DNA of 64,000 nt from Pocillopora verrucosa. Its lineage: Eukaryota; Cnidaria; Anthozoa; Scleractinia; Pocilloporidae. Of this stretch, positions 27,150-60,000 are shown one piece after another. The translations under genes and the position numbers were made by a program. Under the pieces are notes generated by a model. It searched no databases, had not been told where the DNA came from, and saw nothing but the letters and a program-made list of their open reading frames with translations. Position 1 is the stretch's first letter. Each line of letters begins with the position of its first letter. The stretch lies in the NCBI RefSeq assembly GCF_036669915.1, contig NC_089320.1, positions 11,591,313-11,655,312 of the forward strand, read 5' to 3'.

Positions 27150-28217
27150 TCAGTGCTTTCGTAAATTTAGGTACCTTGTACACAACAGTACTACTAGGAT
27201 GTTTCCAAGAACGACTAAGATCGTTAGCAAAATACTGTTTGAGAATGTGGGTCCTGGGAGTGGCTCGATGATAGCCCTTCTCTGCTGCATATCTAGTTCA
27301 ACAGCTGAAAACTCATCTGCGGCACCGATTGCGCATAGAATATGAAGGAAGTGATGGCTGTGCCCTACCACGTCGAAAACTCCGATCATCAAACGTTCCG
27401 GGACGCGGAAAACATACGCAAGCGTCCCACCCGCGTAGAATAGACAGTGACGAGTGAAATACTGCACGGATTGAGGGCTGCTACAAGTTGATGTTGTGTT
27501 ACATAATGATAACATTGTCCAATATGGTGAAGTGTTGAACAGCCACGAGCTAATGTAAGTACTCGCTTTTAAAGCTGCATCGAAACGACTTGTGCTGCAA
27601 AACGAGTAGCAACACGCCAACGTCGATGCAAAAGAAATGGCGGCGGAGATCGCTAGGAACAGAGCGGGGGTGTTGAATATCAACCAAGTTGTGCTCACAG
27701 GCCTAGAATAAAAATAAAACACTTGACCAGCCGTGAAGGTGTACACGCTAATGGCAGCATAATCGAAAAAGAAGCATACGTGACGGGCTTTGATCGACAT
27801 GCAGTTGAACAAGTGAGCGCCAGCACTCATGGCAAGCATTACACAAATCCCGAATGCAAAGCACAGCAGTGGATACACGAACGGATCTTCCCGCGGCTCG
27901 TGTTTGGCGAAGACAGATGCAAAGCGAAGCATGAAAACAGCGAGCGCCAAAACATGACTCCAAATGTTGATCGTCTCGTTGGTGGCTTGAAACAAGCTTT
28001 TGAAACAGTACCACGCGGACGAATCACACTTGCGATAACTCGATATTATAAACGGCTCGCGGAAAAAAGAAGGAACTTTGTCGAAATCCACCAAGTCAGC
28101 TTCTTCCAGTTTGCTTTTGGTTGTCACGATATTCTTTTTGTTGCTTTTTTTAAGACCACTTTCGCTAATAAGGCGTTCATTATCTGTTCCGATGGCCACT
28201 TTGCACTTTCGTTTCAT
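27150..28217 (-). CDS. PAQR family seven-transmembrane receptor (membrane progestin receptor-like), copy 1
   Basis: Intronless, 355 residues, ATG at 28217. The hydrophilic N-terminus leads into the PAQR signature VPSFFREPFI, the SYRKC segment and NETINIWSH before the first span. Seven or more hydrophobic segments follow. Likely zinc ligands of this hydrolase-like fold are visible: His135 in SAGAHLF, with Asp152 in FFDYAAIS nearby, and His288 and His292 in GHSHHFLH. Known PAQR proteins include membrane progestin and adiponectin receptors and Golgi proteins; the ligand cannot be deduced here. The gene lies head-to-head with copy 2 (starts 2.6 kb apart), and the membrane cores are almost identical. 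Long open frames on the other strand at 27723-28229 are shadows. Confidence 0.9.
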   Translation of the reverse strand: MKRKCKVAIGTDNERLISESGLKKSNKKNIVTTKSKLEEADLVDFDKVPSFFREPFIISSYRKCDSSAWYCFKSLFQATNETINIWSHVLALAVFMLRFASVFAKHEPREDPFVYPLLCFAFGICVMLAMSAGAHLFNCMSIKARHVCFFFDYAAISVYTFTAGQVFYFYSRPVSTTWLIFNTPALFLAISAAISFASTLACCYSFCSTSRFDAALKASTYISSWLFNTSPYWTMLSLCNTTSTCSSPQSVQYFTRHCLFYAGGTLAYVFRVPERLMIGVFDVVGHSHHFLHILCAIGAADEFSAVELDMQQRRAIIEPLPGPTFSNSILLTILVVLGNILVVLLCTRYLNLRKH

Positions 28218-30808
28218 CCTGTCTCGTAAAAAGGGTCTGCGTTCTGGAAAAGAACGGTCCTGTTTTTTTTTAGCTGAGGCGGTTTAATGGTTTCGTTTTT
28301 ATGACTGCTCTCTTTCGCCGACTTCGTTCCAGTTCACTGAATCGTAAATATCCAATTCATTTGTGTCATATTTTAAATTCAAATTTCAAATTTTTCAAGC
28401 AACCATGGGACTTTGAACTTCGACTTCCTCGCGCATCTCATTTATAGTAGGCCTTGGTAGACAAAACATTCACCTCTTCCATCATGCGTCTGTTCTCCAC
28501 GGAGATAATCATAATATACAAAAAGTATCACGAGAAAAACTCGAGAAGGTTCGAGACCAACTTTGATGCACCTCAAACTAATTCACGCACTCAATAAATT
28601 TCTCACCAAGAAACTGTTAAGCATTCGAAGTTTTTAGAACTCTTAATTTTAAAAACACTGTTTTCAGCATGCATAATTAAGACAACTGCTCTCGTGGCGA
28701 AGAGTTATAGACGCAATTTTTTCTTTCACAATAGTATATAAATTTACGCATCTGCAAGATGATATTTGTGGTCAGTACATTACGGAATAATTAGCATAGA
28801 TTAAATCAAGTTTGTTAGTTGCAGTCCGCCATGCTTTGTCATCCTTTATTTCTTCTGTCGTTCTTTTACTTCTATTTGTGGTTAGTCTAATTCTTAAAAA
28901 AAAAAAAAAAAAAAAAAAAATGTAACCTCCATCGACCCCGTGTTGACCTGATCCACACATGTACGTACAGTATTTTGATGTTTCTCCTGAATGTACAAGA
29001 AGACTATAAAGATGGACAATCTGAAGTGTCGAGAATTTCTTCGACCAAATTTGAATCGGTAGTAAATGATATTTCCTTTCTTTCCTTAAAACTATGTTAT
29101 TACAAACGTCTAATTATTTTAAATAGTGCTGTTTTCAATTGAAATTAAAACAATTTACATGCATGACTGTTTACCCAGTTTTACATGCTCGACAGGTGAC
29201 CTATTTTGTTGATAATTTTCTAAAAGACAGTTATGAACCATTAATATTTCGGAATAATTTCAACATAACGTTTAATTTTCGCTTTTTCGTTTCTAACATC
29301 TCCATATTCTTCCCAAGTTTAGAAATGTCGCAAAACTCGCACAGAATATACGAACTTTGTCCGTGGCGTAAAATGTCGTGTCAAAAACAAACTAATGACT
29401 TGTAAAGCTGATAATTATGATATTGATCTTTTGTGTCGTTTATCATATATTCAAATTTTCTTAAAGAATGACAATTTTTTTTAAGTATATTTTCTTCAGT
29501 TAAGCCTTCTCCTCATTTCTATGTAACTTTTCTTTCTCGAGAGCTAAGCCAACAACTGAACAGGTTCTTGTTTGAAAAAATATTTTGAGTGGTCTGTTCT
29601 GTATTTGACTGACGAAGACAAAGGGAAAGCACGTGAAAAGAGAGTTCAAGACACGTGGCACGGTATCGGTAGCGATCTTCGCAACAATGAACACTTCTTA
29701 AGCAGTAGTGAAAATAAGGCCTGAAAAAAAAATCCAAGCTTGTACGGGATTTGACCCCATGATACCGGTGCAGTGCTCTACCTCCTGAGCTAACAGGCCA
29801 TGGGGGAGCTAGTCATTATGTTGGTTCCAAATAAATCCGTGAAGTGATATATCGCTTCATGTTCATTTCTTAATCTGCAGTTAAAAGATATAATAAAACC
29901 CTTTTCCGATCTGCTGAGCAGGTCATCACCCATTAACTATACAGTGCCAAACTAAAAGGCGTTAATTTTCCTCTGAGCGACTGCCAGGCTTTAATGAATA
30001 CCATGAACAGTGTTTCATTTGTTTAGTTGAAAATGGCTTCAAATTTATATTGTTCAAGTACGTATTTTTTAGGGCGTGGAAACGTTTCCTGGCCTAAACG
30101 AAGGTCACTCTTACGGTATTAACATTATTTGCATAACGTTTTTGTAGCATTATTATACACAAGGGCGAATTCCGGGGAGGGGTGCAGGGGGTGCGCAACC
30201 CCCCCCCCCCCAATCCTAAGATGACCTTCGGCTCTTTAACATAGCTTCACTGTTTTGCAAAATCTGCCATATCGTTTGCTATTTAGCACCAGAAGTTCAC
30301 ATTTTGTTATTGCTTCGTCGTAAGTCTTTTTTCTTCATTTTCGCTTTTAGAATTTGTTGAAATCACCCGTCAGCTGGTTCTTTTCTTAGTTATGCACCCC
30401 TTCTTAAGAAAAATACTCTTTACACGCCTAATAGGACATGCTTATTTACATGTCTGTGGTTTTGTGGACTTTGTAAGGGACTTAGCATTCATTATTCCAA
30501 AAGTAATTCCGTTTAATGGGTAAAATGCCAATAATTGTGTTTCATATTTAATGAAAACTGGTAAAATAACTAGTGCCAAGTTTTCGTATTCTTCATCTTG
30601 TGTAAAGCTCTCTGTGATAAAACTCGTTTTTTTTTTCCTATTATAACTGAAGCGTAGCACTCAAAAATGTATGTCGTAAACAATAAGCGCAATTGCGGAA
30701 TATTTACAACACAATGAACTGGTAAAAAGCCAAAGAAAGAGAGCAGCTACCCAAACATAATCATTATTGCACCGGGTCAGTTGAAAGAGATTGTTAATTT
30801 GTGAGAGC
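28218..30808. other. Intergenic region between the two divergent PAQR genes
   Basis: Contains a poly(A) run of about 25 bases near 28896-28920, a tRNA-derived SINE fragment at 29655-29860 and a C-rich stretch near 30200-30213. No coding ORF is supported. Both PAQR promoters should lie here, but I see no convincing shared element. Confidence 0.6.
29655..29860 (-). repeat. tRNA-derived SINE copy with recognisable tRNA head
   Basis: On the minus strand 29799-29738 resembles a tRNA with box A GTTAGCTCAGGAGGTAGAGC and box B-like GGGGTCAAATCCCGTAC. It is followed by a T run and CAGGCCTTATTTTCACTACT. The same body occurs in two copies near 62 kb. A short gap in the variable region and the dispersed copies argue for a SINE rather than a tRNA gene. 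Confidence 0.6.
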
Positions 30809-31912
30809 ATGAAGAATCGGCAATCCAACGTGCCAACACGAACAGGAAAGGGATTTTATGGGGCCACTAAAGCGCTGATCAGTAAAAATAATAATCAAAA
30901 AGACAATAACTGGAACATCACACGAAACAAGTGCGAATTGGAGAAGGAAACTGACATCTCAAACGATTTGGTAAATTTTGACAAAGTACCTTCGTTTTTT
31001 CGCCAACCGTTCATAGTATCGAGTTATCGTAAGTGTGATTCGTCTGCGTGGTATTGTTTCAAAAGCTTGTTTCAAGCCACCAACGAGACGATCAACATTT
31101 GGAGTCATGTTTTGGCGTTTGCTGTTTTCATGCTTCGTTTTGCTTCTGTCTTCGCCAAACACAAGCTGCAGGAAGATCCGTTCGTGTATCCACTGCTGTG
31201 CTTTGCATTCGGGATTTGTGTAATGCTCGTTACGAGTGTCAGCGCGCACTTGTTCAACTGCATGTCCACTGAGGCTTGCCACGTATGCTTCTTTTTCGAT
31301 TATGCTGCCATTAGCGTGTACACCTTCACGGCTGGTCAAGTGTTTTATTTCTATTCCAGGCCGGTGAACACAACTTGGTTGATATTCAACACTCCCGCTC
31401 TGTTCCTAGCGATCTCCGCCGCCATTTCTTTTGCATCGACGTTAGCGTGTTGCTACTCGTTTTGCAGCACAAGTCGTTTCGATGCAGCTTTAAAAGCGAG
31501 TACTTACATTAGCTCGTGGCTATTCAACACTTCACCTTATTGGACAATGTTATCATTATGTAACACAACATCAACTTGTAGCAGCCCTCAATCCGTGCAG
31601 TATTTCACTCGTCACTGTCTATTCTACGCGGGTGGGACGCTTGCGTATGTTTTCCGCGTCCCAGAACGTCTAATGATCGGAGTTTTCGACGTGGTAGGGC
31701 ACAGCCATCACTTCCTTCATATTCTGTGCGCGATCGGTGCAGCAGATGAGTTTTCAGCTGTTGAACTAGATATGCAGCAGAGAAGGGCTATCATCGAGCC
31801 ACTCCCAGGACCCACATTCTCAAACAGTATTTTGTTAACGATTTTAGTCGTTCTCGGAAACACCTCAGTAGTACTGTTGTGTACAAGGTATTTAAATCTA
31901 CGAAAGCACTAA
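30809..31912 (+). CDS. PAQR family seven-transmembrane receptor, copy 2
   Basis: Intronless, 367 residues from the ATG at 30809; an in-frame TTG six codons upstream is not a plausible eukaryotic start. From VPSFFRQPFI onward the protein matches copy 1 with only scattered changes, and the span from the third membrane segment to near the C-terminus is almost identical, including GHSHHFLH and the serine-histidine motif (SVSAHLF). The first 60 or so residues are unrelated in detail (Asn- and Lys-rich, KNNNQKDNNW). Downstream of the stop the two genes diverge within about 10 bases. This fits an inverted duplication with later homogenisation of the core. Its stop is 30 bases from the end of a convergent GPCR pseudogene. 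Confidence 0.9.
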   Translation: MKNRQSNVPTRTGKGFYGATKALISKNNNQKDNNWNITRNKCELEKETDISNDLVNFDKVPSFFRQPFIVSSYRKCDSSAWYCFKSLFQATNETINIWSHVLAFAVFMLRFASVFAKHKLQEDPFVYPLLCFAFGICVMLVTSVSAHLFNCMSTEACHVCFFFDYAAISVYTFTAGQVFYFYSRPVNTTWLIFNTPALFLAISAAISFASTLACCYSFCSTSRFDAALKASTYISSWLFNTSPYWTMLSLCNTTSTCSSPQSVQYFTRHCLFYAGGTLAYVFRVPERLMIGVFDVVGHSHHFLHILCAIGAADEFSAVELDMQQRRAIIEPLPGPTFSNSILLTILVVLGNTSVVLLCTRYLNLRKH

Positions 31913-31942: not shown

Positions 31943-32602
31943 CTAAGTTGCTTTTTGGGATGGACAGGAAAACCGTCTGATGATGTCCTTCACTCTTTGA
32001 ATCATTTCTCGCATCCTCCAGCAGTACAGGAATGGATTTAGAGTCGAGTTAAACAACATAAGAGATATCTTTAAAGACCAGGTAAAGTAAAGTGGGCGTG
32101 TCTCCAAACCAGTGATAATCATGAAACTTGAGATTACGCCATAAGGGAGATAACAACTGGATACCCAAAGAGTATCAACAAGCGCCATTACTCGCCTCAC
32201 AGTCACCACCTGTCTGTATCTCAGCCCCAAAAACGGAGCAAGAAGTCTGTCTACTCTTATTGCAGTCATTGTTAATAAAGATACGCCGCTAAACAACAAA
32301 CTCGTGATGGTAAAAAGGAATCAGAAGTAGTACCAGTCCTTCGAGTGATCTCGAGACAAATGGATTCCACCTCGTAAGGGATGTGTATGAGGCCCACGCC
32401 CAAATCTGTGCTCGCCAGACAACTGAGCAAATGTTTCGACGGCGGATGAAGCGACGAAACCTTCTGAAGAGCAACAATGATCAAAATATTCCCTACAAAT
32501 GCAATGAAATGAAAATGTCCTGAGCTGCTCCAAGAACTGAAGCGCTACAGAGCTCTTTGTGATTGTATGATTTCCATCCTCGATTGAATTTGTAATCGCC
32601 AT
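31943..32602 (-). pseudogene. Broken rhodopsin-like GPCR gene
   Basis: The reading starts MAITNSIEDGNHT at 32602, shifts frame before the first transmembrane segment, continues [20 protein letters not shown], shifts again near 32300, and ends in [25 protein letters not shown] and a stop at 31943. Compared with the intact receptor at 59065, roughly 90 codons covering the fourth to sixth membrane segments and the third intracellular loop are missing: [10 protein letters not shown] runs directly into CYLPYGV. Two frame breaks plus the internal deletion make a functional receptor very unlikely. The two are clearly family members. Confidence 0.82.
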
Positions 32603-47006: not shown

Positions 47007-50000
47007 TCAAAGCTCATCTTTAATAGGCGCCTTAGCTCCAGATATTTCCTTCATAGCAGAATTGCGAAGTCCTTCAAACATTTCTTCTTTCTTTCGCCGA
47101 TGATGTTCTAGCTGTTTTTCAATAAACTCGATCGAAAAGGGTGGTCTGTCTTCCTCATCTGCCATCAGATTACTTAACAGTTCATATGCAGCTGGATCTT
47201 CACTGTTTCCCATTTCCAGATATTCCAGTGTTTCTCGTAGAGACTTCGACATTGCTAGAAGGTAGTTACGAGCAACCTACCGATGGACAAATGTACGCTT
47301 TACATAGGTTTTCAACGGAGTGTCCAAAGTTAGCCGCGTTTGCTCTGGTTTTGCTTCATCACACTTTGTCTTACTTCTACCACTCGCGGCGCGCTAGCCT
47401 TTTTTTCCCCACCGTTTTTTTTTTAATCGCCCGACGGAGTTCGCCGAAAAGCAGCGATTGCTCGTTGTTGAAGTTGGTTACCTATATTTTCTATGATTCC
47501 TCGTTGCTTTGGTCGGTTGTACTTAGTTTGGCTCAACAGCTGAGCGCTTTTTTGACTTAATAGGGGCAACACTATTTACTTTGGAGAAGCAGTTAAAATT
47601 CCAATTCTAAAATGTATCTGGCTTTCTCTCAAACTAAATGAGTGAATTTCTACTCAAATGATTCAATTTCTGTCTATTACAACCTACTCTTTCACCGACT
47701 GGTGGTTTACAATAGGAAATACATAAGGGCTTAGCCGTGGTGTAGGGGGGGGGGGGGGGCCCTTGGGAATATGGGTCTCCACCTAGCTGCCCTCTGGTGC
47801 CTGTGCGATATTAGAGTCACGCCCCCCCCTCTTGGGAACAAACGTCAAAAGTCAACAAACAACCACGAACTTTCTCACCTTACAAGCGAAAGTGTACCTT
47901 GCCCCACTAAACCCAGGGCTCGGTGGTCTGGCTGAGTGAGGAATAATCCCTCGGAAAATTACAATTCTTCCGTATCGTGGACGTACAGAAGCAATCCACT
48001 CATACTGTTGTTGTCCAGGGGGGTAGGGTGTTCCGTCTTGGGATAAAACCTCTTCGAAAAATGCAGTTTCTCCATAGTTATTCGCCTCCCAGTCAGGAGT
48101 CAGGTACATGAGAAAGGTGTATTCATGCTGCATTGAAAGAGAAGGCCATAATTATCTTACAAAAGCTACTTCACGGTTTTGTGCATCTTGAAAAAAAAAT
48201 GTAAACATTTCAGTTTCAACTTTTAAATCTTTTCCATTCTAAGCCATCTGTATTTATTCTTGTTCATAATTGCCTGTCGCTTATTTCTTCATATTTTGTA
48301 GACTTCTTCAACTGAAATGTACACGTAGTTTTACTTGGTGCAAAAAGAGAATCAGAATATAGTGCGTGACCTTACATAAGTATAAAGGAAGGAGAGAAAG
48401 GGCACTTTGAAATGTCCCCATTAAATCAATCTCGTTCTGCCCTACTTCCTGTTGTTTTTCTCCTCTTCATAAAACCTCACCCAAGCTATAGTCAGGGGGT
48501 TCCTGTGGTGTGTACAAGCTATGGTCAGGGTTTCCTGTGGTGTATATGATCTCTCTTTAATTAATTTTTCTTGACATGGAGTGAGCTCCTCTATGTCATG
48601 AAAAAAGTGACACATGGATTAAAACGCAAAAGAAGGCAATACTGTAGAACCTCTTTCCCCCACTAGAAAATGTCACAAATAATAATGTCACTGGGCCATT
48701 TCACAAATAATATAAAAACAGAGTTTATGTTTGTGGGAGTGCATCAGAGCCATTTTAGCCTGAGTTGTAAGGCCAGGGTGAATTAAGAAGCTCTGACAAG
48801 GGCCCAAACCATATTTCTGCCCAAGAAATTAACTGTACTTTTAGTCTGACTAGTATTTTCACTTTTGGAGAGCACTGAGAAAATAAGAACTGAAAAACAA
48901 AAATTATAATAAAGCAGTCTGAACAATTATGTGAGTGGACATGTGCAAGCAGGCTAAAATGACAAAATCTCCATTTTAGCTTGTAAAATGTGCCATAATG
49001 CCCTACAGACTTTTGGAGAGTAGCCGCAGAGTTTACATTAAATGACAGTAGAAATTCAGTTAATAATAATGACAATCTTTAATGAGGAAACTTTTTCACT
49101 AAAAAGTGGTTTACAAAAAGGACCTCGAAATCAGTACCTCATTAGGCTCACAGTCTTCATGAATTCTGGGATAATGTGAGTTTCTGATGATATTCATGGA
49201 CACATCATATGGATACCATTCATCAAGACCACTAAGGTATGTAGCCAGTAGCTTCACAATCTTCCACAAACGACTTTTTACAAAGTGTTTCACCTGGGAT
49301 GAAGAAATAAATGATAAGAAAGAATTTGTTGATTTTTTTTTCTTTTTTCTTGTTTTTTTGCAGTTAAATTTTACCCTAATCTATCCTGTCAAGTCCATGA
49401 TGACAAAAATATTATTGCCAAATGAATCCAAAAAACAAGATTAAAAATCTGCCATACCTAATATTAACGTGCCATTAGAAAGGTTCTGGTAACACACAGT
49501 GTCTAGGGGTACTGCTACTCCACCCTGGACAGTATGTTAGCCCAATTGTAGGGTTACCCCCCAAAAAAATATTTCAGGTTTCCCAAACGGTTCACTGCTA
49601 CTCATTAATATTCCAGGATGGAGAGAGGCAATGTGACTTGTCTTTCCTAAGAACACAAAAGAGCGACCAGAGAGCACAGAAATAACCACTTGGCCACTAT
49701 GTCTCCCATGACTTTGAATAGTTTTTTGGATAGTATTCAGCTTCTTTGATAATCCACTGCTGTTCTGACTATAACCTTTGTGATAACTTGCCCTTAATAT
49801 CAACACACTTCACTGAAAATCACTCTTAGTAAAATTATATAAGAAAAGGATATTTTTCATTTACACACTTAGCCTAATATTACTTGGTAATGTTACTGTT
49901 TAAACCTCGTCATTAGCTGAACTAATCAACTAATGAGAAAGATAAAGAACATCAATGTAATTTTAACCTTTAACATTGCTATCCAGGACACATTGTCATG

Positions 50001-53000
50001 TTCTTCATCCACACCATCAAATGGTTGGTACTGGAAAACACTGTTGTAGTGCAACAAGAAGAGTCGCAATGCATCAAGATCTGATTTGTCAACAAGACCA
50101 TCAAAGACTGCAATTTCTCTACCCTGACTGTCATGGAACCTCCTCTTCTCATATTTACTCAAGTCCAGCACAGGAATTTCACCCTCATCTGAAAGGGCAA
50201 ATCCTAGAGTTTCCTGGCTTTCTGATTTTTTAATTAATCTCTGTTGGAGTTGAGAGGAGAAAGAAGTGATTAGTTCAATATTTCATTACCTCACAATGAA
50301 GTTAATTGGAATTTTTACGATAAAAATAACCACAGAACATAAAATTCTAGAAATCTGAGATCCAGAACTCTGTAAGGCAAAAGAAATGATCAATTGAAGT
50401 TCCTTTCTGAGTAAAACTCTCACTTTCTTATAGACTTTTATTCCAACATTTTTTTAAAGCCCTTACACCTTAACATCAAAATAGTTTTTACATTCCCTCC
50501 ATGCAGTTCTTGAATATGTTTCCAGTGGCACTAACTACTGGATAATTCAGTTAAACATTAAGAGCTTTTCAAGTTTGTGATCATTGCCTTAATTCTACTG
50601 AGGTTCATGCTTAATTCATCGCTGATACTTTAGTGGGAAATTAGATGTTATTCACCCTTAGGGATAAAGGGTTAAGTTGTGGTATCTCTAGGGTGTGCTT
50701 CAGCAACTGAAGAAATATTGCCAAGATAAAAAGGTACATTGACCCACCATGAGGGTAATGAAAAGCCTTAGCTCCTGGGCCCAAAATGCTGATAAAACTT
50801 TGATTCATTTACATGTAAGTCACCACCTGCTACCATTTGATCATCACAATTTATACATTCACATAGTAAATACATGGGTATTTAAAAATTGAGAGATGCT
50901 ATGGCTGCACTTAAATCTGTGACAATTTGAGCTCATTGCTGTACTTGTGTGTGGATTTAGATTTATCTTCTAAAAATGGCCACCTTCTGATGACCCCCTA
51001 ACATGGATATTTTGGGCAGTTGAAGTTCAACACAATACCTTTGTTTCTGCAATAGCTTGTTTTGCTTTCTCTTTTGATGTTGTCACTCTTACAAGAATGT
51101 CAAATTGTGCTTGTACATACGACATTGCAGGAGGCTTGAAGATGAATGGAACTGTTGCATTCCAGACAACCATCCGTCCCATTTTGGGATACACAGCTGC
51201 TAGAATTTCTCTGCTGTCTTTGTAAAAAATAGCCTCCCCATAATCATTTCTCTTGAAGTCTTTGTTCAGAGATATTCTGATCATGAGTTCATCTTCATCT
51301 ATGTTGTTCTCTGCAAATATTAAAAAGAAAAATGTAGGAAAAAATTACCTACAGCAGACAAAATTAAAAGTTAATCAATTAGTTATTATATGTATATTGA
51401 AATCACAGAAGCAAGGGCAGCACTGATCATCATCACAGTTGCTTTACAGTTTGCAACTGTTTGTTGAATACAGTCCAACTTCCACAAAATATCACTTCTC
51501 CACTATGGCCATTTCCCTAAAAAGGTCACATTTTTGATTTTGACAAACAGCTCATACATTTGCTATTACTTAAAACCCCCAACAATGGCCACCTCTCAGG
51601 AATGACAACCACCATAATGATTAGTCAACAACCATAATGATTACAACATGTGCCAACTGCTAAAATAACTATAAATATGAAAAAGGAACATTGAAGTGGG
51701 TAAGGGGAGGGGAAGATTAATCAAAGCTAAAGAAAAAAAAGTAAAAAAACAAAAAGTAAGGGATCAAGTAAAAAAAATATATATATTCAAATCTTTTAAG
51801 CTACTTGAAAGTTTCTGCTTCCCCTCAAACATTATTGCAAGAAATTAGTGACCACTTTGTTCATATCAAAAGGAAAATTAAAGTGGGGGAGGGGAGGGTG
51901 ATATCAATTAAAGCTGTGGAAAAAAAATCAGGAAGTAGACAGTGGAATATGACAAGACTATTGCCTCTAATTGTTAGCTTTGTTGCAAGGTTACCAAATT
52001 TTAAACTTCTGCCTGGCCATTGTGTCAGAACCTGTAGCCTTTTACCACAAAGTCTTCACAGCCTTTTGATTAAAGTGAGATGAACACTTGTAGTCAAAAT
52101 TCTATCAGCTGACCACAATTGATACCACCACATCCCTCTGACAGAGAGCCACAACTCATCAAACCAAGATGTAGCAAAGTAAGAAACATGAAATTTTTAA
52201 TGATAAAAAGCTATAACATGATGTTTGTAATCTTCAGTTGTACGTAAGAAAAATATGAATATCATACAAATCAAAAATAATTGCTAAATGCAACCCCCAA
52301 AAAATTGAAAATAAGATGTATTAAACTTTTCCATCTCCAAAGATGATTAAAATGAAATTTCTCCTAACAATTTAAATACATTTTCCAGAAATGAGGTGAT
52401 AAGAAAAGGAACTATATCAGCTGTAAAGTGTTGTTATGATAAAACATCCAATTTAACAAAGTTATTTCCAAGGAGATTTCAAGCAATTAGGAAGAAGAAT
52501 TACAAATCAGATTTAGTGACTTGAAAGCTTTCTGTATCTACTCTGCAACATAGCAACTAATACAATCCTGAGGTATTCGCTCACACCTGTTTTGGATTAC
52601 AGCGAGTATTAACCTTTCAGAAATAATTTACTGTATAGTTTTATAGTTTTGAGGGCAGCTGTATCGAGGGCTCGAAACAGAAGAAACTATCAATGTAAAT
52701 TTACACGTAAAACTTGGCTATTCTTCGGCGATGAACTGCATTGTTTACTCAGTCAATGGTATCGTATCTGCATGATTTATTATTATTCAATGCAAAATAA
52801 AGAACACGAACATCAGACAAGAAAAACAAACGTAGTTTCATGATGGGTAAAATTCTTCAAATATCTCCCTTACCCTTGCTAGAAGCAGTTATAAAATCCA
52901 GTCTGCGATGCATTGAGAAAGTGACATCGTATGGAAAATATTCTCTCCCTCCAGATAACTTTTCCACGACTTTGCGGCTTATATTCCATAAAGCTGTATC

Positions 53001-53297
53001 GGAGAAAAACTCTGGATTGACAGGAGCAACCCAAGGCGAATTACTAGATGTATTAAAAGTCTCAATGTTTTGGTAATAATCGTTGTATGCGTAAAACCAC
53101 GAAGAGATCTTCCCCTCTAGTTTCCCAGAAGTGACAAGGCCATAATACCCACGAACAACTTCTGCCGGGAAGAGATTGTCGATGACAAAAACGTACTTGT
53201 CTCCGTCGAGATACCTTCGAGTTAGTTTTGGTTTTGATTGACTTGAGGAACATGAATATAGTAAGAGAAAGTAACTGAAAAGTGCTTGATAATTCAT
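47007..53297 (-). CDS. ER-resident protein with tandem 2OG-Fe(II) dioxygenase domains, six exons, 547 residues
   Basis: Exons in transcript order: 52874-53297, 51039-51310, 49968-50240, 49138-49293, 47879-48127, 47007-47276. All are GT-AG with continuous phase, 1644 coding bases. The N-terminus (MNYQALFSYFLLLYSCSSS) is a signal peptide and the C-terminus is KDEL, so an ER-lumen protein is predicted. Domain 1 (about 30-225) has the fold's landmarks (YFPYDV, YGEAIFY, MGRMVVWN) but lacks the metal ligands: VPFIFKPP replaces the second His motif and Gln replaces the co-substrate Arg. Domain 2 (about 250-460) keeps YPYDV, His368-x-Asp370 (IHED), YGETAFFE, His439 (IPHSARPP) and Arg452 (ARYTF), so it should be active. 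Prolyl or lysyl hydroxylation of secreted proteins is the likely type of reaction; the substrate is unknown. The last exon's acceptor is weak; the alternative is read-through ending at 47852. Confidence 0.85.
48483..48550. repeat. Two-copy tandem repeat of about 34 bases
   Basis: CAAGCTATAGTCAGGGGG and CAAGCTATGGTCAGGG each precede TTCCTGTGGTGT; a short tandem duplication in a dioxygenase intron. Confidence 0.7.
50455..50676. repeat. MITE-like element, family 2, copy 2
   Basis: Shares AGAGCTTTTCAAGTTTGTGA and GGGAAATTAGATGTTATTC with the copy at 8731. It ends with GGGATAAAGGGTTAA, complementary to the left end of the other copy. It lies in a dioxygenase gene intron. Confidence 0.5.
52320..52530. 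repeat. Degenerate MITE-like element, family 1, copy 5
   Basis: Follows the same order of blocks (AAATTTCTCCTAACAATTT, ATTTTCCAGAAATGAGGTGA, TACAAATCAGATTTAGTGAC), but with many differences and eroded ends. It lies in the first intron of the dioxygenase gene. Confidence 0.45.
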
Positions 53298-58622: not shown

Positions 58623-59064
58623 GACATGGTTTTGATTCCTTTTTTTAAAATTTCTTTCGAACATTAAGTAATTTAATACCTCACCAGAAGCTATTTTACC
58701 ATAAAAAAGGGTTTGTTACGAAGACCATATTGTTGATCGTTCTGTTATGAAGGCAGAATTTTTACGGCGTAAGAAAATACCTTGTATACTGTAGCACGAG
58801 TTGCAACTAGCCTGAAACGGATCCAGGTTAGTAATTTTCAGTTTTGGCGGCGACATCGTCAGCGTTTAGGAATATGTTATTATTTTATCACGTCGTTAAT
58901 TTATAATTTACAATTTGATCTTATGGATTAAGAGGTAATTTTCTTTATTTCAGAAGAGACCAATACACTTTGAAGCGGAAAAAACAGAATGATATCTCTA
59001 GATCAACTCTAACAGTGTTACTAGAGCTCGGGTTGCATATGAAGAAAGAGCCGTGGATGAAATA

Positions 59065-60000
59065 ATGGCGAATTTAACTGAGGATGGAAATTATACGACA
59101 ACAGGCCTGGGGTTTTCCTGTTCTCTAGGTCTCGGAACAGCTCAGAAGATATTCATTTCAACTATAAATCTTCCCTCATCCACTTTTGCAATTATTGGAA
59201 ATCTCTTGATCATCATTGCTCTCCGAAAGGTGTCGTGCCTTCATCCGCCGTCAAAACTCTTGCTCAGTTGTCTTGCTTGCACAGATTTGGGCGTGGGCCT
59301 TATTTCACATCCTCTTTTCAGTATTTTCCTTATGGCCCCTGAGCACTCAAGGGTTTGTTTCTTCTCTTCTTTACTTTTTCTTATCACTGGTTCAATATTT
59401 TGTGGGGTATCTTCGTCAACAATGACTGCAATAAGTGTGGACAGACTTCTAGCTCTGTCGCTGGGATTAAGATACAAACAGGTTGTAACTATGAGGCGAG
59501 TAAAGGCTCTCGTTGGTACTCATTGGGTCTTATGCATTATCATTATGCCGGTACTATTTCATAGTCATCGCATTTTCCTAGGCATTGGGTCTGCAATGTT
59601 TTTGTTAAGCATAATGATCTCTTCATTTTGTTACATCAAAATTTATCGCACTCTCCGCCTCTCGCAAGCACAAGTTCAGAGCCAAGGTCACCAAGGACAA
59701 CAGAATGAAGAACCAACTCCACTGAATAACGCGAGATACAAAAAAACAGTGTCCACAGCACTGTGGGTACAAATGGCATCACTGGTTTGTTATCTCCCTT
59801 TTGTTTTGGTCATTGGTTTTGTTTCTATCACTGAACATGAAACGCCATCATTCAACTTTGTCTCGTGTTTATCGACATCTCTTATGTTGTCTAACTCGAC
59901 TATAAATCCAATCCTGTATTGTTGGAGGATGAGAGAAATGAAACGAGCCGTAAAGCACACGATAAGACAATTTTGTTGTTATCCTAATGAAGAAACTTAG
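59065..60000 (+). CDS. Rhodopsin-like (class A) GPCR, orphan, 311 residues
   Basis: One coding exon from the ATG at 59065 (MANLTEDGNYTTT, with N-glycosylation sequons) to TAG. A 5' exon boundary (TTTATTTCAG) at 58954 suggests spliced untranslated exons upstream, possibly the cassettes at 55.7-58.0 kb. Visible landmarks: IIGNLLII in helix 1, LACTDLGVG in helix 2, Cys in HSRVCFF at the top of helix 3, ISVDRLLAL (DRL instead of DRY), GTHW in helix 4, CYLP in helix 6 and NSTINPILY in helix 7. No cysteine is seen in the short second extracellular loop, so the usual helix 3-loop disulfide seems absent, as in melanocortin-type receptors. The ligand is unknown. It is related to the pseudogene at 31943-32602 and the partial gene at the right edge. 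Confidence 0.9.
   Translation: MANLTEDGNYTTTGLGFSCSLGLGTAQKIFISTINLPSSTFAIIGNLLIIIALRKVSCLHPPSKLLLSCLACTDLGVGLISHPLFSIFLMAPEHSRVCFFSSLLFLITGSIFCGVSSSTMTAISVDRLLALSLGLRYKQVVTMRRVKALVGTHWVLCIIIMPVLFHSHRIFLGIGSAMFLLSIMISSFCYIKIYRTLRLSQAQVQSQGHQGQQNEEPTPLNNARYKKTVSTALWVQMASLVCYLPFVLVIGFVSITEHETPSFNFVSCLSTSLMLSNSTINPILYCWRMREMKRAVKHTIRQFCCYPNEET

Follow-up and report, generated by a model that had tools for sequence, protein, structure and literature searches.

The window analysed here is a stretch of 64,000 nucleotides from the stony coral Pocillopora verrucosa (assembly GCF_036669915.1, contig NC_089320.1, positions 11,591,313 to 11,655,312). Its minus strand carries a gene of 6,291 bp for a protein of 547 amino acids with two 2-oxoglutarate (2OG) oxygenase domains and a C-terminal KDEL. 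We consider it probable, at roughly 0.65, that the gene encodes a secretory 2OG oxygenase held in the endoplasmic reticulum (ER), belonging to an animal family without a name and combining a working C-terminal domain with a dead N-terminal one. Gene structure, domain homology, ligand sets, family spread and tail distribution were calculated; from these we infer catalysis, ER residence and the role of domain 1.

An ancient internal duplication would have produced the two 2OG domains, which are of the double-stranded beta-helix (DSBH) type. The C-terminal copy probably kept iron and 2OG binding and would be the catalytic one. Its reaction would most likely be the hydroxylation of a peptide or protein in transit through the ER; client hydroxylation is the usual chemistry of 2OG oxygenases. 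The N-terminal copy appears to have lost catalysis and may have been retained as a structural domain or to bind clients or partners, by analogy with the dead C-terminal domain of OGFOD1/Tpa1. The stony-coral branch presumably gained, or retained, a KDEL-type tail, which is expected to keep the enzyme in the ER.

Gene structure and domain homology

The gene has six exons with GT..AG borders and consistent phase, all at the positions given by the original prediction. They are listed here, with related proteins numbered from P0001:

Exon 1, 52874..53297, minus strand: start codon, hydrophobic N-terminus that is presumably a signal peptide, beginning of domain 1
Exon 2, 51039..51310, minus strand: remainder of domain 1
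Exon 3, 49968..50240, minus strand: linker and beginning of domain 2
Exon 4, 49138..49293, minus strand: domain 2 including the HxD motif
Exon 5, 47879..48127, minus strand: domain 2 including the distal His and the presumed 2OG Arg
Exon 6, 47007..47276, minus strand: end of domain 2, helices of the C-terminus, KDEL and stop codon; junction 47879/47276 found in P0001-P0004

A database search found 547-residue proteins of 99% identity annotated in Pocillopora meandrina (P0001) and P. damicornis (P0002). The protein is also complete in P0003 and P0004, for which the longest contigs measure 3,020 and 2,536 nt. These are shorter than the 6,291-bp gene and therefore presumably derive from spliced RNA. 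The last junction (47879 to 47276), which had been singled out for checking, proved right: RYTFACK/VARNYL, the slash marking the junction, is present in all four of these proteins. A fusion of two genes, or a last exon taken from another gene, is scarcely credible. The weak pyrimidine tract at the last acceptor and an ATG early in the last exon would fit such an error, but complete 547-residue proteins are annotated in two further Pocillopora genomes and also lie on contigs that fall short of the gene's length, all four full-length proteins include the last exon, and the stretch right after the junction aligns across the family.

For the comparisons below, we removed P0042 (domain 2 only) and P0074 (which runs on into intron 1) from a set of 74 proteins, leaving 72 relatives that, with the window protein, make up 73 aligned rows. 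Alignment A1 took in 51 of the 59 proteins of the first family search and A2 15 of 16 pieces, missing P0054; pieces of a domain are missing in P0011 and P0038. A further 59 proteins from a domain 2 profile search (P0075-P0133) stand outside the tallies. The two domains of the window protein are:

Domain 1 (residues 24-222, interrupted by intron 1), 51069..53228, minus strand: 2OG fold lacking an active site
Domain 2 (residues 258-464, interrupted by introns 3-5), 47259..50165, minus strand: 2OG-Fe(II) oxygenase with full site

Profiles of the two domains (66 rows each, with 7 of the 73 left out) were matched by hhalign with a probability of 100%, at 24% identity over 187 columns. In an AlphaFold2 model of P0003 (predicted local distance difference test, pLDDT, 84.3; predicted template modelling score, pTM, 0.82), 13 elements follow in identical order in both domains. 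In domain 1 these are strands 24-31 and 34-40, helix 45-57, strand 89-93, helices 95-99 and 102-114, and then strands 121-130, 150-155, 168-171, 177-181, 188-192, 197-199 and 210-218. Their counterparts in domain 2 run from 263-268 to 452-460. Domain 1 is therefore a 2OG fold and both domains arose by duplication, in agreement with the tandem of homologous 2OG-Fe(II) domains originally proposed.

Database models gave further matches. NF052475, 'FlmC family 2OG-Fe(II) oxygenase', a model of 181 positions, was the best NCBIfam match of both domain 1 (E 2.6e-7, residues 33-195) and domain 2 (E 1.4e-10), all matches lying far under its curated cut-off (59 bits for P0003, with 240 needed). The literature collection searched contained no paper linking FlmC with oxygenase or 2-oxoglutarate. 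Against Pfam PF13640 the whole protein scored 40.6 bits and domain 2 alone 31.1, over the cut-off of 27. Among long-form relatives, one of two major clades of the family, ten domain 1 pieces had been cut and the five submitted all passed this cut-off.

Introns were also proposed as evidence for duplication, on the grounds that one lies at a similar place just after the HxD region in both domains. This part of the argument fails. In the alignment about five residues separate the two introns, and their phases are not the same: that of domain 1 is in phase 1 within codon 142 (aligned to C371), that of domain 2 in phase 0 between residues 375 and 376. The long paralogue in the same genome, which matches P0031 in stretches 47-198, 199-366, 362-451 and 451-511, has no break just after the HxD place in either domain. 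In addition, a third family gene holds both domains within one open frame of 453 amino acids.

Active sites and candidate chemistry

Residues of the active site of domain 2 and their aligned counterparts in domain 1 are as follows:

H368, 49159..49161, minus strand: first metal ligand of domain 2, H in 73/73 rows (window included)
D370, 49153..49155, minus strand: second metal ligand of domain 2, D in 73/73 rows
H439, 47936..47938, minus strand: distal metal ligand of domain 2, H in 73/73 rows
R452, 47897..47899, minus strand: presumed 2OG-binding Arg of domain 2, R in 72/73 rows, K in P0057
S139, 52881..52883, minus strand: domain 1 counterpart of H368, by alignment
K141, 52875..52877, minus strand: domain 1 counterpart of D370, by alignment
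F197, 51144..51146, minus strand: domain 1 counterpart of H439, by alignment
Q210, 51105..51107, minus strand: domain 1 counterpart of R452, by alignment

Domain 2 thus keeps the His/Asp/His set and the Arg that domain 1 has lost, as anticipated from the window. R452 presumably binds 2OG, and its column lies 13 residues past the distal His in 71 of 72 relatives. Domain 1 has no Arg in this column in any of the 72 relatives (Q in 39, L in 15, E in 10, others in 8), and none of them retains a complete metal triad there. Remnants vary. HxD is kept in domain 1 of P0035, P0036, P0043, P0044, P0045, P0060 and P0061, all with Tyr distally, and P0066 has an HxD one residue off register, again with Tyr in the distal column. 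A distal-column His without HxD occurs in 7/72 (P0014, P0015, P0024, P0027, P0057, P0069, P0070), and HxH is found in P0041, a protein of the sponge Corticium, as well as in P0039, P0049 and P0050, which lie next to P0041 in the tree. With the Arg missing throughout and such varied remnants, the ancestor had probably already lost the domain 1 Arg, and the metal ligands would have gone piecemeal in separate branches. Identity between the window protein and that of Nematostella is 63% in domain 2, 42% in domain 1, 29% in the linker and 25% at the C-terminus. Domain 1 evolves faster than domain 2 and slower than the linker and C-terminus.

Domain 1 might instead regulate domain 2 and bind a different ligand, for instance a glycan, some other metal or a molecule resembling 2OG. 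Nine of its residues are at least 90% conserved in 29 short-form members, among them R132, Y165, G186, R187, W191, P201 and P202, some of which lie near the old ligand places in sequence. The HxH of sponge-type members and the HxD of several long forms would also suit this explanation. Residues at the ligand places nevertheless vary between branches and a complete metal set is found in 0/72, and we regard ligand binding by domain 1 as distinctly unlikely. It is also unlikely that the enzyme is a prolyl hydroxylase acting on collagen or on a different proline-rich protein of the matrix, even though some database names read 'Prolyl 4-hydroxylase alpha subunit Fe(2+) 2OG dioxygenase domain', since the marker residues do not support these names. 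We take the first metal His of PHD2 to be His313. Three positions before the corresponding His of domain 2, the 72 relatives have T (59), P (12) or S (1). In PHD2 the residue three before the first metal His is Tyr310, a prolyl hydroxylase mark according to sections of PMC4396695. By sequence, the Tyr mark of prolyl 4-hydroxylases is thus missing from the family. A second mark of prolyl hydroxylases is an Arg where the active site opens. Again by sequence, an Arg at Asp+5 or Asp+7 of domain 2 is absent from 71/72, and an Arg somewhere within Asp+3 to Asp+8 occurs in 6/72. Compared with enzymes of the collagen prolyl 4-hydroxylase alpha and PHD2 types, the coral protein therefore lacks one and probably two residues, so a prolyl target is not to be assumed and the substrate is perhaps non-prolyl. 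The Pfam scan of the window protein listed no N-terminal domain of prolyl 4-hydroxylases, and enzymes of these types are not known to have a second DSBH domain.

The favoured enzyme, with its live second domain and dead first one, also differs from other ER hydroxylases. Leprecans (P3H1-3) are ER enzymes with a KDEL-type tail and a 2OG domain, both shared with the coral protein, and with a CXXXC/tetratricopeptide repeat (TPR) front half. The coral protein lacks this front half, having three Cys in all and no TPR match in Pfam at E<=10. Lysyl hydroxylases (PLOD/LH) carry N-terminal glycosyltransferase-type domains, whereas the Pfam scan listed no glycosyltransferase domain in the coral protein and its N-terminal domain is a 2OG fold.

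The closest likeness is to the uS12 prolyl 3-hydroxylases OGFOD1/Tpa1/Ofd1, which also have two DSBH domains, one catalytic and one without a metal site. The top eight Foldseek matches all belonged to OGFOD1/Tpa1/Ofd1 (E 2.9e-9 to 2.0e-7). As far as the consulted portions of PMC4396695 describe them, OGFOD1/Tpa1 have the catalytic domain at the N-terminus, in reverse order to the coral protein. The same portions argue for a partner-binding role of the dead C-terminal DSBH domain, and OGFOD1 is said there to have an acidic disordered region. They also give a Leu three before the first metal His as the mark of prolyl 3-hydroxylases, where the present family has Thr or Pro. Unlike OGFOD1/Tpa1, the present family has a hydrophobic N-terminus and, in corals, an xDEL tail. 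The original statement that no named family has exactly this layout was thus nearly right: a tandem with one dead domain is known, in the opposite order.

Family spread and the coral tail

Seventy-two relatives, some incomplete and many without a source name, likewise have two domains in tandem of which the first is dead. Named cnidarian members come from Pocillopora, Acropora, Montipora, Actinia, Nematostella, Actinostola, Dendronephthya, Rhopilema, Hydractinia and Clytia, and named deuterostomes are Branchiostoma, Ptychodera, Saccoglossus, starfish, sea urchins, feather stars and a sea cucumber. The placozoan Trichoplax and the sponge Corticium are also represented. The layout sought in other cnidarians is therefore found there and beyond, and the proposal of a lineage-specific enzyme is not supported. 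No vertebrate or protostome name appeared among the matches, although two of the searches scored only the roughly 8,000 candidates with most words in common and many rows are nameless. On a possible bacterial origin of domain 2, a one-motif scan of genome contigs gave 26 stretches and no relative, and named bacterial proteins were only weak matches in the domain 2 profile search (E about 2e-7, P0131-P0133). We found no publication whose title or abstract describes the tandem family, full texts being outside the scope, and locus names likewise gave none. The family is apparently old, animal and unstudied.

A tree of 62 rows (11 of 73 removed as short pieces or near copies) contains a short-form clade of 31 rows (support 99/96) and a long-form clade of 26 rows (99/99). 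Since cnidarians and deuterostomes occur in both clades, the split seems to predate these groups; the tree was rooted at its midpoint and the placement of several long branches is unsure. The longest branches belong to two very divergent tandem members, P0058 (831 amino acids) and P0059 (429 amino acids). These could be non-animal, which would matter for dating the family. Several long-form members (e.g. P0041, P0030) have long Asp/Glu-rich C-terminal stretches, seen in none of the short forms shown. The P. verrucosa genome holds at least three family genes. The second is a long form near 3.66 Mb on the same contig, 97-100% identical to P0031 over the exons matched, and the third, at 664-2025 (L003, contig C4), is divergent and 65% identical to P0057.

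A hydrophobic start was found in 62 of 63 proteins by a crude mean-hydropathy test, which left out 9 of the 72 (seven visibly cut or oddly started ones, by hand, and those without an initial Met). For the signal peptide originally proposed, this test of mean hydropathy shows a hydrophobic N-terminus. The predicted terminal KDEL is present, giving the window protein the K/HDEL-type C-terminus of ER-resident proteins:

KDEL C-terminus, 47010..47021, minus strand: KDEL or NDEL in 11/11 coral-clade relatives

Among the coral-clade relatives, four of which are named (Pocillopora and Acropora), P0001-P0008 end in KDEL and P0009-P0011 in NDEL; P0003, P0004, P0010 and P0011 were assigned to the clade by identity rather than by tree. 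In six representatives the last three residues are invariant while residues -6 to -11 vary. The anemones Actinia and Nematostella, sister to the coral clade (99/96), have no xDEL tail. Among the 72 relatives this tail is confined to the coral clade.

Several observations weigh against an ER-held enzyme with a dead 2OG domain in front. None of the 61 relatives outside the coral clade ends in xDEL, the nearest being IKEL in P0072 and RTEL in P0059, so ER residence, judged by these tails, is not a family trait. NDEL, the ending of the Acropora proteins, is not a classical retention variant. The original prediction also depended on domain 1 scoring as a 2OG fold: NF052475 matched it as given above, but against PF13640 domain 1 alone reached only 13.1 bits (E 0.19), below the cut-off. 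The VIA-align rows span residues 251-506 only. Finally, the Foldseek two-domain matches to Tpa1/OGFOD1 had template modelling (TM) scores of 0.21-0.31 and a root-mean-square deviation of 19-24 Å over the whole chain. Domain packing may therefore differ from theirs, and roles are compared by analogy.

Neighbouring genes and meaning of the family

Other genes were noted elsewhere in the window. Two HlyIII/PAQR-type genes of one open frame each, at 27153-28283 (minus strand) and 30785-31909 (plus strand), match PF03006 at E 3.5e-31 and 9.8e-31. They are very similar by eye, inverted and about 2.5 kb apart, perhaps through a recent inverted duplication. A rhodopsin-type G protein-coupled receptor occupies one open frame at 59002-59997 (plus strand; PF00001, E 1.3e-25), and a piece of a similar receptor lies beside the HlyIII pair at 31946-32320 (minus strand; E 6.5e-6, just under the curated cut-off).

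A bolder proposal, which we hold to be a long shot, makes the family an early-animal mirror image of OGFOD1/Tpa1. Its secreted clients would be recognised by the dead domain 1 and modified at a residue other than proline. The coral KDEL would then have moved the enzyme into the ER to act on skeletal-matrix or mesoglea proteins. The only possible leads to the skeleton are the coral branch itself and CR_93, a 'Prolyl 4-hydroxylase-like' protein that excerpts of PMC7853314 place in the axial skeleton of Corallium rubrum, the red coral.

The family matters on several counts. Its members stand at different states of decay of the dead domain and so form a natural series for asking what such a domain is used for. 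The dead domain lies on the opposite side to that of OGFOD1/Tpa1. The ER tag of the coral branch, in turn, would be a clean and testable change of address.
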